A DNA stretch of 64,000 nucleotides from Methylocella silvestris (lineage in GTDB: Bacteria > Pseudomonadota > Alphaproteobacteria > Rhizobiales > Beijerinckiaceae): assembly GCF_002891535.1 (NCBI RefSeq), contig NZ_PDZR01000001.1, positions 124,001 through 188,000 of the forward strand. The letters run 5' to 3'. The notes below the pieces were generated by a model. That model saw nothing but the letters and a program-made list of their open reading frames with translations. It was not told where the DNA came from and searched no databases. Below are positions 49,829 through 62,370 of this stretch, one piece after another. A program made the translations under genes and the position numbers. Within the stretch, counting starts at the first letter, position 1. Each line of letters opens with the position of its first letter.

Positions 49829-50022
49829 TGCGCAATGCGGCCGGCTGGAAAAGGTTCGCTCATCGAGGCTCTTGCCGTCGCGGCCAGCCGCGGCGGCGGA
49901 AGGATTGAAGAGGCCGGAGCGAGCCGAAGCGCGGCTTTGGCGCGAATATTGCTGATCCTGAGGGCTTGGCCCCCAAAGGCGCCGGCCCGATATCCCCGCG
50001 CTCCTTCCTTCGAAGTTCACCC

Positions 50023-51411
50023 ATGCATGACTATGATATGATCGTCATCGGGAGCGGTCCCTCCGGGCGGCGGGCTGCGATCCAGTCAGCAAAGCTCGGC
50101 AAATCCGTGCTTGTCGTGGAAAAAGGGCGGCGCGTCGGCGGCGTTTCGGTCCATACGGGCACCATTCCGTCGAAAACGCTGCGCGAGACGGTGCTCAATC
50201 TCGCGGGCTGGCGGGAGCGCGGATTTTACGGACGGTCCTATCGCGTCAAGGAGCAGATCGGCGCCGACGATTTGATGGCGCGCATGAGCAAGACGCTCGA
50301 TCATGAGGTCGAGGTGCTTGAGCATCAGTTCAGCCGCAACGCGGTCCGCACCAAGCGCGGCCATGCCCGTTTTGTCGGCCCGCACGAGGTCGAGATCAAA
50401 GGCGAGAGCGGCGAAACGCAAAATTATTCCGCCGCCCATTTCCTGATCGCTTGCGGCACGCGGCCCTTCAGACCCGATTACGTGCCCTTCAATGAGGTCA
50501 ATGTCTTCGACAGCGACGAAATCGTCGATCTGAAGAAAGTGCCGCGCAGCCTCACCGTCATCGGCGCGGGGGTGATCGGCGTTGAATATGCGACGATCTT
50601 CAGCGCGCTCGACGTCGCCGTGACGTTGATCGAGCCGCGCCCGACTTTCCTCGATTTTCTCGACAAGGAGGTGATCGAGGAATTCGTGCATGATCTGCGC
50701 GACCGCAATGTCGCGCTGAGGCTTGGCTCGCCGGTGACGTCGATCGTCGTCAATGGCTCCGTCACAACGACGCTGGGCAATGGCCGCGTCGTCAAATCGG
50801 AGATGCTGCTGTTTGCCGCCGGCCGCGTCGGCGCGACCGACGTGCTCAATCTTGAGGCGGCGGGCATCGACACGGATCATCGCGGCCGCATCACTGTGAC
50901 GCCCGAGACGCTGCAGACGTCCGTCCCGCATATTTACGCCGCCGGCGACGTGATCGGTTTTCCAAGTCTCGCCTCGACCTCGATGGAGCAGGGGCGCGTC
51001 GCCGCATGCCACGCTTTCGGGCTCCAGCCGTCGCCGCCGCCCGAATTCTTTCCCTATGGCATTTATTCCGTGCCGGAGATTTCGACAGTCGGCATGACCG
51101 AGGAAGAAGTGCGCAAGCGCGAAATTCCCTATGAATGCGGGATCGCTCGCTTTCGGGAGACGTCGCGCGGCCATATCATGGGGCTGAACAGCGGCATGAT
51201 GAAGCTGATCTTCTCGACCAAGACGCGGCGTCTGCTTGGCGCCCATATCGTCGGAGAGGGCGCGACCGAATTGATCCACATCGGCCAGGCGGTGCTGAAC
51301 CTCAAAGGCACTATCGACTACTTCATCGAAAACACCTTCAACTATCCGACGCTGGCGGAAGCCTACAAGATCGCCGGCCTCGACGCCTGGAACCGCATGG
51401 TCCGGCAATAA
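50023..51411 (+). CDS. sthA: Si-specific (soluble) NAD(P)+ transhydrogenase
   Basis: SthA is a soluble FAD enzyme that mainly re-oxidises NADPH with NAD+. The 462-residue protein begins MHDYDMIVIGSGPSGRRAA with the FAD-binding site, has the NAD(P)-binding VIGAGVIGVEYATIF near residue 180 and the second FAD segment HIYAAGDVIGFPSLAS, and ends with the dimerisation domain. The redox-active CxxxxC of related reductases is replaced by VSVHTGTIPSKTLRE, the expected difference for SthA versus lipoamide or glutathione reductases. The ATG at 50023 is chosen; an ATG at 49966 gives an unrelated 19-residue extension. Confidence 0.95.
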   Translation: MHDYDMIVIGSGPSGRRAAIQSAKLGKSVLVVEKGRRVGGVSVHTGTIPSKTLRETVLNLAGWRERGFYGRSYRVKEQIGADDLMARMSKTLDHEVEVLEHQFSRNAVRTKRGHARFVGPHEVEIKGESGETQNYSAAHFLIACGTRPFRPDYVPFNEVNVFDSDEIVDLKKVPRSLTVIGAGVIGVEYATIFSALDVAVTLIEPRPTFLDFLDKEVIEEFVHDLRDRNVALRLGSPVTSIVVNGSVTTTLGNGRVVKSEMLLFAAGRVGATDVLNLEAAGIDTDHRGRITVTPETLQTSVPHIYAAGDVIGFPSLASTSMEQGRVAACHAFGLQPSPPPEFFPYGIYSVPEISTVGMTEEEVRKREIPYECGIARFRETSRGHIMGLNSGMMKLIFSTKTRRLLGAHIVGEGATELIHIGQAVLNLKGTIDYFIENTFNYPTLAEAYKIAGLDAWNRMVRQ

Positions 51412-57445: not shown

Positions 57446-58252
57446 TCAACTCGCTGGCGGCGCGAGCGCGACGGCGGCCTCGCTCGTCAAATAGCGGAAG
57501 GTGAAGCTTTCCTGAAGATACAGCTGAACGGTGTCCGTCGTATGGCTGAGATAGCCGATCGCGACGTCCTGGCCGAGCGTCAGTTCGAAATCGCCGCCGC
57601 GCGTCGTCAGCACGAAGGCCCCGGCGATCGCCGGCGCCCAGAAGATCTGATCCTCGACCAACCGCTTGACGTGCTCCAGCACCGGGTAGCCGTGATCGCT
57701 GGTCTCGGCCAGCGCGGTATAGGCCTCTGCGCCGAACAGGACGGCATAAGGGCCATTGACGCCGACGAGGCGCAATTGGCTCAAGGCGTGCGCGATGGCG
57801 TCGGGGTAATCGCGGACGTCGGCCGGGAGCGTCATGATCGGATTGCTGGTTCCCTGCCGCACGCCCGTAATGGCCGCGTCCGCATAACCGTCGAAAATCG
57901 CCCTGTCTTCGGCGAAAGCGATGGTCTTTGCCGCATCCTTGGCGGGCTGCCAGTCGGAATCGTTCGCGCCGCGTTCGACGTCGTCGATGGCAGCGCGCGA
58001 GAGTTCGAAGGGGACGCGCAATTCGACCAGCGGCTTCACTTCGCGCTGGCGCGCCAGCACGCCCTCGGCCGGAGCATTTATAGTCCGAAGATGGCCCGTG
58101 CCCACGGCCGAAAGCGCGACGCCGCCGGTCTGCGGCATGTCGACGACTCGCCGGCCCGCGAGGTACCGCTTGAGCGTACGGGTCGTCTCCTCTTCGATCT
58201 GAGCCCATGCGGCGTCGGAAATTGGCGCGAGCTCGCGATGAAGATTATTCAT
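57446..58252 (-). CDS. Family 1 encapsulin shell protein
   Basis: This 268-residue protein is a family 1 encapsulin (formerly linocin M18/CFP29), which has an HK97-like fold and assembles into an icosahedral shell around cargo enzymes. The N-terminal MNNLHRELAPISDAAWAQIE and TLKRYLAGRRVVD, the middle RAAIDDVERGANDSDWQPA, SNPIMTLPADVRDYPDAI and GPYAVLFGAEAYTALAETSDHGYPV, and the C-terminal TRGGDFELTLGQDVAIGYLSHTTDTVQLYLQESFTFRYLT match the family. The ATG at 58252 lies inside the end of the peroxidase gene with an AGGAGA site 8 bases upstream; a longer frame to 58597 is only antisense-free overlap. It is the shell gene of a cargo-first operon. Confidence 0.95.
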   Translation of the reverse strand: MNNLHRELAPISDAAWAQIEEETTRTLKRYLAGRRVVDMPQTGGVALSAVGTGHLRTINAPAEGVLARQREVKPLVELRVPFELSRAAIDDVERGANDSDWQPAKDAAKTIAFAEDRAIFDGYADAAITGVRQGTSNPIMTLPADVRDYPDAIAHALSQLRLVGVNGPYAVLFGAEAYTALAETSDHGYPVLEHVKRLVEDQIFWAPAIAGAFVLTTRGGDFELTLGQDVAIGYLSHTTDTVQLYLQESFTFRYLTSEAAVALAPPAS

Positions 58253-59333
58253 GCCGTTTATCTCCTTTGAGGGAACCGATGGCGAGGGTCTCGTTTTTTG
58301 CCAGCGGGGCGGATTGTGCGGGCGCCGCCGGCGCGGGAGCCGCCGCCTCATCCGCCACATTTTCCAGAAATGTCGCGGAGGGGACGAAAAACAAATTGCC
58401 CGTGACCGGCCGGCTGAAGTCGAGCAGCTTGTCGTAATTGCCAGGCGGACGGCCGATGAACATATTCTCCAGCATCTGCTCGATGGTGCGCGGCGAGCGG
58501 CTGTAGCCGATGAAATAGGTGCCGAATTCGCCCTGCGCCGGGCTCCCGAACGGCATGTTGGCGCGCAGGATCTTGATCTCCTTGCCGCCCTCTTCAATGA
58601 TCGTCAGCGAGGCGTGCGCCCAGCTTGGCTTGACGCTTTCATCGAGTTCGACGTCGGACAGTTTTTTGCGGCCGACGATGAGCTCCTGCATTTCCGTCGG
58701 CACCGCATTCCACGCCTTCATGTCATGCAGATATTTTTGCACGATGACATAGCTCCCGCCGGCGAAGTTTTCGTCTTCCGCTCCAATGAGGGCGGCCTCC
58801 ACGGCGGCGGCGGCGGCCGGGTTTTCGGTTCCGTCGACAAAGCCGAGCAGATCGCGATCATCGAAGTAGCGAAAGCCTTGCGCCTCATCGACGGGCGAAG
58901 TGAATTTGCCGATGCGCTCCATGATCTGCGCGCCGAGTTCAAAACAAAGATCCATGCGGCTGGCGCGTATGTGAAACAGAATGTCGCCCGGGGTCGCTAT
59001 GGCCGTGCGGCCCTCGGAGCGGATCTCGCGGAAGGGATGCAGCTCGAGAGGGCGGGGCGCGTCAAAAAGCGCGTCCCAGGCCTCGGAGCCAAATCCGATG
59101 ATGCAGGACAGGCCGCCTTCGATATTGCGAAAGCCGACCGCGCGGATCAGTCCGGAAAGATCGCCGCAAAATGCGCGCAGCCCGGCCCGGCTCTCCTCAC
59201 CGGGAGTGATCGCCACGACCATGAAGATGGCGGCCGGAGTGAGGGGGGCGACGACCGGCTGCGGAATCGGGGGCGGGGAGGTCTCACCTGACGCCGCCGC
59301 GCTCATGCCGCCAAGCTTGTCTTCCTTGAACAC
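58245..59333 (-). CDS. DyP-type peroxidase, encapsulin cargo
   Basis: A haem peroxidase of the dye-decolourising family. The 362-residue protein has the distal motif GFVDGTENP (residues 164-172, with the catalytic aspartate), the probable proximal haem ligand His240 (SWAHASL) and the distal arginine Arg257 (ILRANMPFG), as in class P/B DyPs. Beyond the catalytic domain an Ala/Pro linker and targeting peptide TLAIGSLKG direct it into the encapsulin. Its stop overlaps the encapsulin ATG by 8 bases. The GTG at 59333 is used; ATG at 59306 (MSAAASGETS) is equally plausible. The unusual Ala/Pro-rich N-terminal ~25 residues precede the fold. Confidence 0.95.
   Translation of the reverse strand: MFKEDKLGGMSAAASGETSPPPIPQPVVAPLTPAAIFMVVAITPGEESRAGLRAFCGDLSGLIRAVGFRNIEGGLSCIIGFGSEAWDALFDAPRPLELHPFREIRSEGRTAIATPGDILFHIRASRMDLCFELGAQIMERIGKFTSPVDEAQGFRYFDDRDLLGFVDGTENPAAAAAVEAALIGAEDENFAGGSYVIVQKYLHDMKAWNAVPTEMQELIVGRKKLSDVELDESVKPSWAHASLTIIEEGGKEIKILRANMPFGSPAQGEFGTYFIGYSRSPRTIEQMLENMFIGRPPGNYDKLLDFSRPVTGNLFFVPSATFLENVADEAAAPAPAAPAQSAPLAKNETLAIGSLKGDKRHE
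58261..58268 (-). promoter_or_regulatory. Encapsulin ribosome-binding site inside peroxidase coding sequence
   Basis: Minus-strand AAAGGAGA, 8-9 bases before the encapsulin ATG at 58252. These same bases encode Lys-Gly-Asp just after the targeting motif of the peroxidase, so shell and cargo translation are physically linked. Confidence 0.8.
58263..58289 (-). other. Encapsulin targeting peptide of the DyP peroxidase
   Basis: Codons for TLAIGSLKG (residues 349-357), which match the targeting peptide known from DyP cargo of actinobacterial encapsulins (consensus about SLxIGSLKG). It follows an Ala/Pro-rich linker (residues ~329-344), the usual arrangement for cargo loading. Confidence 0.9.
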
Positions 59334-59658
59334 GAATCGCGATCTCCACGCCAGAGTTTGAAACCGCGCCGGAACGGCGGGTTTGCGCGCCGACGCCGCA
59401 TAGCCGGACTAGCCCGGCGCCGCCCGCAATGAGGAAAGGGGCCGCGGACAATACGTTGGACCAGGCTCATCGCCTCGATCGCAGCCAAGTCGCATAATCA
59501 TGCATCATAAAGCAAGGGTAAAGCTCTTGCCGACCCCCGCTGCGCGGAGGTAGGGGCGTTTTGCCGCCCCTCCTTGCCCGCCGGCCGTGCGGCCGCTCGC
59601 ACCAGGAGCGCAATACGGCATGTGCAGGAACAACCCCGCTCCGCGTTTGACGGGCCGG
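59334..59658. other. Intergenic region upstream of the DyP-encapsulin operon
   Basis: About 325 bases between the peroxidase start and the stop of the hybrid kinase, both minus-strand. It should hold the promoter of the nanocompartment operon; AT-richer DNA occurs at about 59490-59525. I see no conserved operator that I can name and no gene. Confidence 0.6.
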
Positions 59659-62370
59659 TCAAATGGCCTCGACGCGATCCAGAAAGGAGGACAATTTGGC
59701 CACCCATTTTCGCGACGCCGGGATGTCGGCGCTTTCGGCCGCCTGTTGAAGGCCGGCGCCGATGTCGGTAATGGCCGGGAATCCGAATGCGCCGCCCGAC
59801 CCCCTCATATTGTGCCCAAGGATCGTAACGGCCTCGAAGTCAGCGCGATCGAGGGCCTCATCCATCGCAAGGACATTCTGCCGACAATTTTTCAGATAGG
59901 CGGGGGTGCGTTGCGCTATTTTTCGATTGGCCCGGGAGGTCGTCTCCGGCGGTTCGCCATCCTTTTGCGACGCCGGCGTCGCAGTTACGGAATAGTCCTT
60001 TATCGCTTGCAGAAGCACGTTCTGCTTGATTGGTTTGGTCAAATAGGCCGTGCATCCTGACGCGAGGCAGACCTCCCGATCGCCCTTCAGGGCGGAGGCC
60101 GTTACGGCGATGATCGGCGTCGGGCGCCGGTTATTCGCCTTCTCCCACGCGCGGATGGTTCGTGTCGCGGTCAAGCCGTCCATGACCGGCATTTGCCGGT
60201 CCATCAGGACAAGGTCGTATTGGCCCGCCATAAACATCTGGCAGGCGACTGCTCCAGTCTCGGCGACGTCGATCAGGTAGGGCGTATCCTCGAGATAAGC
60301 GAGCGCGATCGTGCAATTGTCGGGCGAGTCCTCGGCGAGAAGGATTCGCAGCGGGGGCAGCGGCGCCTCCGCTCCGGCGCCGACGGGCGCGGCCGCCGGC
60401 CGGTTGGCTTCGCGCCAGACCTCAAATGGCACGGCAAAGCCGAAAACGCTCCCCTTCCCGACTTCGCTTTCAACCCAGACGCGCCCGCCCATCAACTCGA
60501 TGAGCCGCTTTGAAATCGTGAGACCCAGCCCCGATCCTCCAAACCGGCGCGTGGTGGATGAATCGGCCTGAGTGAAGCTGTCAAACACATGACCCAGTTT
60601 CGCGCGCGGAATGCCAATGCCGGTGTCCGAGACGGTGAACCGCAAGGCGGTCGGAACCGAGCAGTCTCCATCCAGCTCGACCTTCAAGGACACCTCTCCT
60701 GCCGGCGTGAACTTGATGGCGTTGCCAAGCAGATTGAGGAGCACTTGCCGCAAGCGCGTCGGGTCGCCGACGAGGCTATTGGCGACCCCCGGCGCGATTT
60801 CGCACAACAGAGTTAGCGCTTTTTCGTGGGCCCGGGGCGCCACCATCTCGATTATCTTCTCGAGATGGTCGCTCAACGAAAAGCCGGTTCGTTCAAGGTC
60901 GAGCTGAGAGGCCTCGACCTTGGAGAGGTCGAGTATGTCATTGATGAGGTTCAGCAGATTGTCGCCGGAACGGCGGAAGATCTGCACGTATTTGTCTTGT
61001 TCAGGAGAGAGGGTGGTCTTTGCGAGCAGGTCCGCGATCCCCATGATCGCATTCATGGGCGTTCGGATCTCATGGCTCATGCTGGCAAGAAACTCCGATT
61101 TGGCCCTGCTCGCGCTTTCTGCGTCGGCCTTGGCCTGCTGCAGCTCCACCTCCACACGTTTGCGTTCCGTGACGTCGCGAGCCGCGGCGAAGACCCCCTG
61201 CAGCGTGCGGCTCCGGTCGTAAAAGGTCGTGGCGTTATAGGACACGACGGTCTGCTTGCCATCGCGGGCGCGCGCCGTGAGCTCATAGTCGGTCACTGAA
61301 TTTTCACTCAGCACGCGTTGGATTCCCGCTTCCGCCCGCTTCGGATCGGTGAAGCAGTCCTTGAACGGCGCCCCGATCAGCTCGTCCCGGGTGCGGCCGG
61401 TGAGAGCCTCGGTCTGCTTGTTGACGTCGGTGATGACGCCGGCGGGGTCGATCGTCATCAGGGCGTCGATGTTCGATTCGATCAACGAGCGGGTATAGAA
61501 TTGCTGATCGCGCAAACGCTGATCGGACTTCTTTTGCTCTTCCTCGACCAATTTGCGCGCGGTGTTGTCCGTGCCGATCAACAGATATCCGATGATCGCG
61601 CCCTGCGCGTCGCGCAGCGCCGTGACTGACACAACCGCCGGAAAGCGCGTTCCATCCTTGCGGATATAGGTCAGCTCGTAAATGTCCTCGATTCCACGCG
61701 AGGCCTTGAATACCAGGGCCTCAAATCCCGGTTCGATCGCGGTCGCGAGCTCGACGCTCAAGGCCAGAGCGCGCGCGATGAGCTCCTGCGGATCAGAGAT
61801 GTCGGCCGGCGTAATTCTGTTCATCACTTCGGCGGCCGCGTAGCCGAGCATGCGTTCAGCGCCAACATTGAAGATCTGGATCACGCCGCGGGCGTCCGTC
61901 GCGATGCTGGAAAAATTGGCGCTGTTGAAGATCGCGCTCTGTAGGGCGCCTGCCTTGAGCAGCGCCTCTTCGGCCTCCTTACGGGCGGTATTGTCGGTGC
62001 CGATGAGAAGGTATCCGATGACGGCGCCCTGCGCGTCGCGCAGCGCCGTGACGGATACGACCGCAGGAAAGCGGCTGCCATCCTTGCGGATATAAGTCAG
62101 CTCATAAATGTCCTCGATCCCACGGGAGGCCTTGAACACCAGGGCCTCGAAGCCCGGCGTGATGGAGGTCGCAAGCTCTGCGCTCAAGGCCTCGGCGCGC
62201 GCGATCAACTCCAGAGGATCGGAGATGTCGGCCGGGGTGATCTTGTTCATCACTTCAGCGGCGGCATAGCCCAGCATCCGCTCGGCGCCGACGTTAAAGA
62301 TCTGAATCACGCCTTTGGCGTCGGTGGCTATGCTGGAAAAATTTGCGCTGTTGAAGATCGCGCTCTGCAA
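59659..62370 (-). CDS. Hybrid sensor histidine kinase (PAS-PAS-PAS-HisKA-HATPase-REC-Hpt)
   Basis: A 903-residue membrane-free hybrid kinase. PAS domains lie at about residues 1-130, 143-272 and 292-405; the first two are an almost identical tandem copy with a 142-residue period. Then come HisKA with His433 in ASMSHEIRTPMNA, the HATPase boxes (NLLGNAIKFTPAGEV, VSDTGIGIP, FGGSGLGLTIS), a receiver with Asp724 in LVLMDRQMPVMDG and a C-terminal Hpt with His853 in GHNMRGSGGAFGF. The start is a problem: the frame begins with TTG at 62370 inside the first PAS, without a ribosome-binding site close by. An upstream frame continues to a stop at 62485-62487, but offers no ATG, GTG or TTG. Confidence 0.9.
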   Translation of the reverse strand: MQSAIFNSANFSSIATDAKGVIQIFNVGAERMLGYAAAEVMNKITPADISDPLELIARAEALSAELATSITPGFEALVFKASRGIEDIYELTYIRKDGSRFPAVVSVTALRDAQGAVIGYLLIGTDNTARKEAEEALLKAGALQSAIFNSANFSSIATDARGVIQIFNVGAERMLGYAAAEVMNRITPADISDPQELIARALALSVELATAIEPGFEALVFKASRGIEDIYELTYIRKDGTRFPAVVSVTALRDAQGAIIGYLLIGTDNTARKLVEEEQKKSDQRLRDQQFYTRSLIESNIDALMTIDPAGVITDVNKQTEALTGRTRDELIGAPFKDCFTDPKRAEAGIQRVLSENSVTDYELTARARDGKQTVVSYNATTFYDRSRTLQGVFAAARDVTERKRVEVELQQAKADAESASRAKSEFLASMSHEIRTPMNAIMGIADLLAKTTLSPEQDKYVQIFRRSGDNLLNLINDILDLSKVEASQLDLERTGFSLSDHLEKIIEMVAPRAHEKALTLLCEIAPGVANSLVGDPTRLRQVLLNLLGNAIKFTPAGEVSLKVELDGDCSVPTALRFTVSDTGIGIPRAKLGHVFDSFTQADSSTTRRFGGSGLGLTISKRLIELMGGRVWVESEVGKGSVFGFAVPFEVWREANRPAAAPVGAGAEAPLPPLRILLAEDSPDNCTIALAYLEDTPYLIDVAETGAVACQMFMAGQYDLVLMDRQMPVMDGLTATRTIRAWEKANNRRPTPIIAVTASALKGDREVCLASGCTAYLTKPIKQNVLLQAIKDYSVTATPASQKDGEPPETTSRANRKIAQRTPAYLKNCRQNVLAMDEALDRADFEAVTILGHNMRGSGGAFGFPAITDIGAGLQQAAESADIPASRKWVAKLSSFLDRVEAI

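Follow-up and report, generated by a model that had tools for sequence, protein, structure and literature searches.

DyP encapsulins, in which a family 1 shell encloses a DyP-type haem peroxidase, number 1,505 systems in a published catalogue, of which 962 are actinobacterial and 519 proteobacterial (PMC8346489). The structure of the Klebsiella shell places Arg34, Asp38 and Asp229 in contact with the targeting peptide, for which the consensus GSLxIGSLK has been given (PMC10960027). Activity of an enterobacterial DyP is reported to rise towards acid pH, whether the enzyme is free or encapsulated, and its shell to be stable at pH 4.6 and disassembled at pH 3.6; the same report suggests that the shell prevents DyP aggregation, describes organic peroxides as not used, and obtained only about 4% haem loading when the native two-gene operon was co-expressed in E. 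coli (PMC12140327). For M. tuberculosis, an operon mutant is described as resisting peroxide or acid singly and as very sensitive to peroxide at pH 4.5, a phenotype that depended on fatty acids (PMC8635971).

The locus in the window (the whole 64,000-nt stretch of DNA analysed) is of this well-known and widespread kind, a canonical family 1 DyP encapsulin. Two intact minus-strand genes fill positions 57446-59333, with the DyP peroxidase gene transcribed first and the encapsulin shell gene second; the DyP GTG begins at 59333 and the shell stop codon ends at 57446. The first-pass annotation, made from the letters alone, had placed an encapsulin operon with DyP cargo in this interval; its limits were exact to the base, and its reading is borne out by family models, solved relatives and the conservation of the gene pair. 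A chance match is excluded by the family scores together with that conservation. The shell ATG sits within the 3′-end of the DyP gene on the same strand, so that the cargo gene immediately precedes the shell gene, and the 8-nt overlap (58245..58252, minus strand) may couple their translation.

The DyP gene (58245..59333, minus strand, GTG start) encodes 362 amino acids, with 270.2 bits against TIGR01413 (cut-off 100.5), and with N and C domains above cut-off against PF04261 (92.7 bits) and PF20628 (192.1 bits), respectively. The GTG start is supported by the sister genome G040, which has no ATG at codon 10 and yet retains the GTG, the frame and the upstream GGAG. Asp167 (in GFVDGTENP), His240, Arg257 and Asn259 were invariant in all 76 full-length DyPs, including that of the window, among the best 80 of 438 shell relatives and the host family; a catalytic Asp, His240 and Arg257 had been named correctly in advance, the Asp being Asp167. 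On the basis of the DyP literature, we take Asp167 to be the GxxDG aspartate, His240 the haem-ligand histidine and Arg257 the distal arginine. The product is a DyP-type peroxidase, with predicted haem binding and peroxidase activity. Its nearest solved chain was 8u4z, a family 1 encapsulin-associated DyP (E 1.1e-128), the source of which is presumably Klebsiella, in line with PMC10960027.

The shell gene (57446..58252, minus strand) is a complete frame of 268 amino acids, and is the sole PF04454 match in the 4.28-Mb host genome. With 350.3 bits against NCBIfam NF041155 encap_f1 (cut-off 100) and 330.8 bits against PF04454 (Linocin_M18 / encap_f1 family, cut-off 24.3), it is far over both cut-offs, in agreement with the earlier description as a full-length family 1 encapsulin. 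The nearest solved chain was 6i9g (E 1.4e-111, 375 bits, shell residues 1-265 aligned), and by analogy with solved relatives the protein would adopt the HK97 fold and assemble as the T=1 type. Because its residues 1-266 align with residues 1-266 of the Klebsiella pneumoniae shell 8u50 (357 bits), the Klebsiella residue numbering was assumed valid, and Arg34, Asp38 and Asp229 are all present in the window. Arg34 and Asp229 were invariant in 88 of 88 rows (relatives from the best 80 of 438, and the host family), whereas at position 231 the window shell has Ala and 87 of the same 88 rows, including G040, have Ser.

Translation confirmed both the targeting peptide TLAIGSLKG (DyP residues 349-357) and the Ala/Pro linker that had been proposed. 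The peptide ETLAIGSLK (residues 348-356; 58266..58292, minus strand) is followed by the six residues GDKRHE and the stop codon, and preceded by an Ala/Pro-rich flexible linker (residues 327-347, ADEAAAPAPAAPAQSAPLAKN; 58293..58355, minus strand). It deviates from GSLxIGSLK at two places, having Glu-Thr for Gly-Ser; in G040, the peptide starts with Glu-Ser, the shell keeps Ser231, and the linker has many substitutions and 2 residues fewer. With Glu-Thr for Gly-Ser in the peptide and Ala231 for Ser in the shell, DyP may load less well than its relatives do. That Thr349 of the peptide and Ala231 of the shell covary was considered and dropped, because the L040 locus has Thr in the peptide yet Ser231 in the shell, and the window is the one exception to Ser.

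Conservation of the pair, for which the first-pass annotation had proposed a search of related genomes, was assessed over 87 loci, i.e. the best 80 of 438 shell relatives in named genomes, minus two duplicates, plus nine host-family loci including that of the window. In 83 of these 87, a DyP gene with the peptide lay directly upstream on the same strand, and the remaining four have their shell start no more than about 170 bases from a contig end. Each of the 83 shell-adjacent DyPs ends in L-x-(I/L/V)-G-(S/R)-L-(K/R), with Arg in place of Ser in one case, and DyP and shell genes overlap by 8 nt in 67 of these loci and by 4 nt in 14; the other two have gaps of 2 and 11 nt. No third gene cluster occurred beside the pair at one consistent place in at least 6 of the 78 named loci (best 80 of 438), of which 41 span at least 12 kb and 37 less than 12 kb. 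Apart from the pair, five clusters reached 6 or more of the 78: one was scattered (6 loci), and four coincided with the pair but on the opposite strand (75, 70, 32 and 13 loci) and are read, from their position, as antisense shadows. The first-pass annotation had described the class as known from actinobacteria and some proteobacteria; both groups do hold it, but the wording understates the spread, with 519 proteobacterial systems in the catalogue (PMC8346489) and with Acidobacteria providing 59 of the 78 distinct loci in named genomes among the best 80 of 438. In two metagenome-assembled acidobacterial contigs (L013 and L059) the DyP frame is split in two, by assembly errors or recent frameshifts.

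Compared with the Klebsiella pneumoniae system (8u4z for DyP, 8u50 for the shell), to which the window DyP aligned with 432 bits over residues 23-358, the locus has the same peptide type and the same peptide-binding residues (PMC10960027). The window peptide begins with ET in place of GS, the window shell has Val230 in place of Ile230, and the formate dehydrogenase and RpoH-like genes reported as conserved in Klebsiella (PMC10960027) are absent among the flanking genes typed at the window. Among the mycobacterial DyP encapsulins (6i9g, 7p1t and 7bok; PMC8635971), 6i9g is the closest solved shell, and 7bok is a solved relative of the window DyP with 402 bits; the window host, in contrast, is Gram-negative, and the accessory genes reported for mycobacteria (PMC8346489) are absent among the typed flanks. 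Pairs of soil Acidobacteria (e.g. L013, L015 and L020) share gene order, overlap and peptide type with the window, and their shells, up to 83% identical, were the nearest outside the genus among the best 80 of 438; the host phylum differs. Seven host-family shells outside the genus were 64-77% identical, and DyPs outside the genus, acidobacterial ones included, 58-71% (best 80 of 438 and host family). Both 6i9g and 7bok are taken to come from mycobacteria.

Distribution of the cassette is patchy. PF04454 matched in 10 of 199 host-family genomes, nine of them with the DyP-type shell, G172 with a different type only, and G095 with both. Within the genus, the DyP-associated shell was found in 2 of 15 genomes, so the cassette is not needed for life in the genus. 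Monophyly of the nine host-family sequences was rejected in both trees (p-AU 0.0002 for the shell, 8e-6 for DyP), a sign of several acquisitions within the host family. The trees were quick and of modest support, from a sample picked by similarity to the window (best 80 of 438), and L007 and L009 form long branches in the shell tree. There, the window pair and a proteobacterial MAG (L037) stood beside 29 acidobacterial shells (SH-aLRT 95); in the DyP tree, the sole well-supported set with the window row was its pair with G040. Transfer from Acidobacteria was suggested by the nearest shells, but we claim no exchange between phyla, nor any direction, since a constraint holding all 28 proteobacterial shells together cost nothing (p-AU 0.50).

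A possible vehicle for spread of the cassette, the conjugative plasmid, is seen in Methylobacterium sp. XJLW (L163, NZ_CP017427.1:129865-142653), where a DyP-encapsulin pair, annotated as such, has the peptide GSLRIGSLK and likewise an 8-nt overlap. Unlike the window pair, it is plasmid-borne and has other flanks, and its shell is 66% identical. The XJLW pair adjoins uvrBA, a ParDE-type toxin-antitoxin pair and type IV secretion genes. The window shell matched 63 plasmid records, that of XJLW among them, most frequently of Escherichia (18) and Burkholderia (6).

The flanks in G000 and G040 are identical in kind (RND pump, SnoaL-like protein, kinase, response regulator and TetR), so that cassette and surroundings look inherited together; the G040 shell is 97% and the DyP 87-88% identical to those of the window, with Asp167, His240, Arg257 and Asn259 kept. 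In five shell-less genomes of the genus that have RND-pump orthologues (84-89%), the SnoaL, kinase and regulator genes were also missing in the 16-18 kb read, which gave no clean empty site. Directly upstream of the operon, 59659-62370 (minus strand) encodes a hybrid histidine kinase, 94% identical in G040, with three PAS stretches, receiver and Hpt domains; two of the three PAS stretches are near-identical repeats by eye. The 325-nt gap between kinase and DyP genes (59334..59658, minus strand) is presumed to hold the operon promoter, and is largely conserved in G040. It contains one sigma-70-like match (59533-59504, 9/12) and a hairpin at about 59544-59581, with a folding energy of -51.7 kcal/mol (z -3.0) over 91 nt. 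The hairpin, not listed by the terminator scan, may end the kinase transcript, and gap, hairpin and sigma-70-like match together faintly suggest that the operon has a promoter of its own. At 6 kb from the operon, 49966-51411 encodes a Si-specific NAD(P)(+) transhydrogenase (656 bits, cut-off 465).

The host is probably a Methylocella-type methanotroph, judging from its mmoX and PQQ alcohol dehydrogenase genes. The genome encodes MmoX, the alpha subunit of soluble methane monooxygenase, which matches solved alpha chains of methane monooxygenases over its full length (1093 bits), and also four PQQ alcohol dehydrogenases that score above the family cut-off. These genes confirm, as far as tested, the methylotroph-like host suggested earlier and sharpen it to a probable methanotroph. 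A search of the genome for pmoA gave no match, nor did its positive control. No NCBIfam model matched a second large monooxygenase subunit of 552 amino acids in L138, which at a guess belongs to a propane monooxygenase. Methylocella is known from acid soils. Full-text literature searches, at the level of titles and abstract openings and with supplementary catalogues outside their scope, returned no report on an encapsulin in methanotrophs, Methylocella or the window host.

By analogy with relatives, the pair very probably forms a canonical family 1 DyP encapsulin compartment, a shell enclosing DyP, and both assembly and loading would proceed as in those systems. The two genes would be read from one transcript, and DyP would fold, bind haem and assemble into hexamers. 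During shell assembly, the flexible tail of DyP would bring (E)TLAIGSLK to an interior groove of the shell protein with Arg34, Asp38 and Asp229, and sixty shell subunits would enclose one or two DyP hexamers in a T=1 particle of about 24 nm, with the stoichiometry taken from relatives. Hydrogen peroxide would pass the pores and be reduced at the haem, with oxidation of a small organic donor not yet known. In a probable acid-soil methanotroph, the use of such a compartment may be peroxide removal when the cytosol turns acid, and the peroxide could, as a guess, come from monooxygenase uncoupling. This acid-phase peroxide defence is put forward as the likeliest role, at roughly even confidence and carried over from the mycobacterium, because the enterobacterial DyP is more active at acid pH and because of the phenotype of the M. 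tuberculosis mutant. Rather improbable as a whole is the wider proposal that an acid-soil trait moved as a minimal mobile two-gene cassette among Acidobacteria and Bradyrhizobium-like and Methylocella-like Alphaproteobacteria, and in an sMMO methanotroph destroys monooxygenase-derived peroxide under acid stress.

The main rival to peroxide defence, itself unlikely, is that the compartment mainly oxidises aromatic or humic phenols, in a catabolic or detoxifying role, with peroxide as co-substrate. Dyes and lignin are reported substrates of DyP enzymes (PMC8346489), the titles of many named relatives among the best 80 of 438 point to soil, bog, fen or palsa samples, and the adjacent RND pump and SnoaL-like protein might take part in handling organic compounds. 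However, the 78 loci from the best 80 of 438, 37 of them shorter than 12 kb, share no third gene beside the pair, the pores of the Klebsiella shell are given as 9 and 3 ångströms (PMC10960027), and the bulky donor ABTS was turned over 3-8 times faster by free than by encapsulated DyP (PMC12140327).

Two further readings concern the contents and the state of the cassette. A persisting function is indicated by the two intact frames and by G040, where the pair is retained with the same flanks and catalytic residues, and although the patchy distribution would suit a decaying passenger without current function, we consider this scarcely credible. Multi-cargo family 1 shells occur in mycobacteria, and the shell could in the same manner hold a second cargo besides DyP, e.g. 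a ferritin-like protein, and serve iron storage too. Two whole-genome searches with peptide patterns make this very unlikely: among their 13 and 8 matches, DyP was the sole gene-sized frame to end in one, with V-for-I variants and ferritin families outside the patterns, and three other matches that end at most 8 residues from a stop codon lie in frames of 20, 24 and 49 codons.

A different encapsulin-like cassette was met in the comparison genomes, in which five genes follow in one order: a cyclase/ATPase, an encapsulin-like shell, a DUF3237 protein, an FAD amine-oxidase/HpnE-like oxidoreductase and a polyprenyl synthase. It is present in G172 of the same genus as the window (L145:4600-12782), in G095 of another genus of the host family (L146:4297-12480), and on a plasmid of Ruegeria sp. 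THAF33 (L162:5718-13882), whose annotation already assigns the shell to family 1. Identities are 58-77% between G172 and G095 and 38-60% between G172 and Ruegeria. The shell scored 76 bits against PF04454 and 86 bits against encap_f1, below the cut-off of 100, and its nearest solved shells are EncA-like. Polyprenyl transferases are listed among genes tied to family 2 shells (PMC8346489); a shell closest to family 1 beside terpenoid enzymes looks unusual. A draw of 397 genomes of the order gave only two weak partial matches (E ~5e-4), and one of 385 genomes of the class gave no match, the positive control being seen in neither draw. The five-gene set deserves a study of its own more than the DyP encapsulin of the window does.

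With the canonical DyP encapsulin of the window, the hosts of this kind of compartment now include an sMMO-bearing, probably methanotrophic bacterium. The native donor of DyP is stated to be unknown (PMC12140327), and DyP encapsulins are the largest encapsulin class; a genus that is probably cultivated and non-pathogenic, together with a close sister genome, would offer a safe setting in which to ask what they are for.
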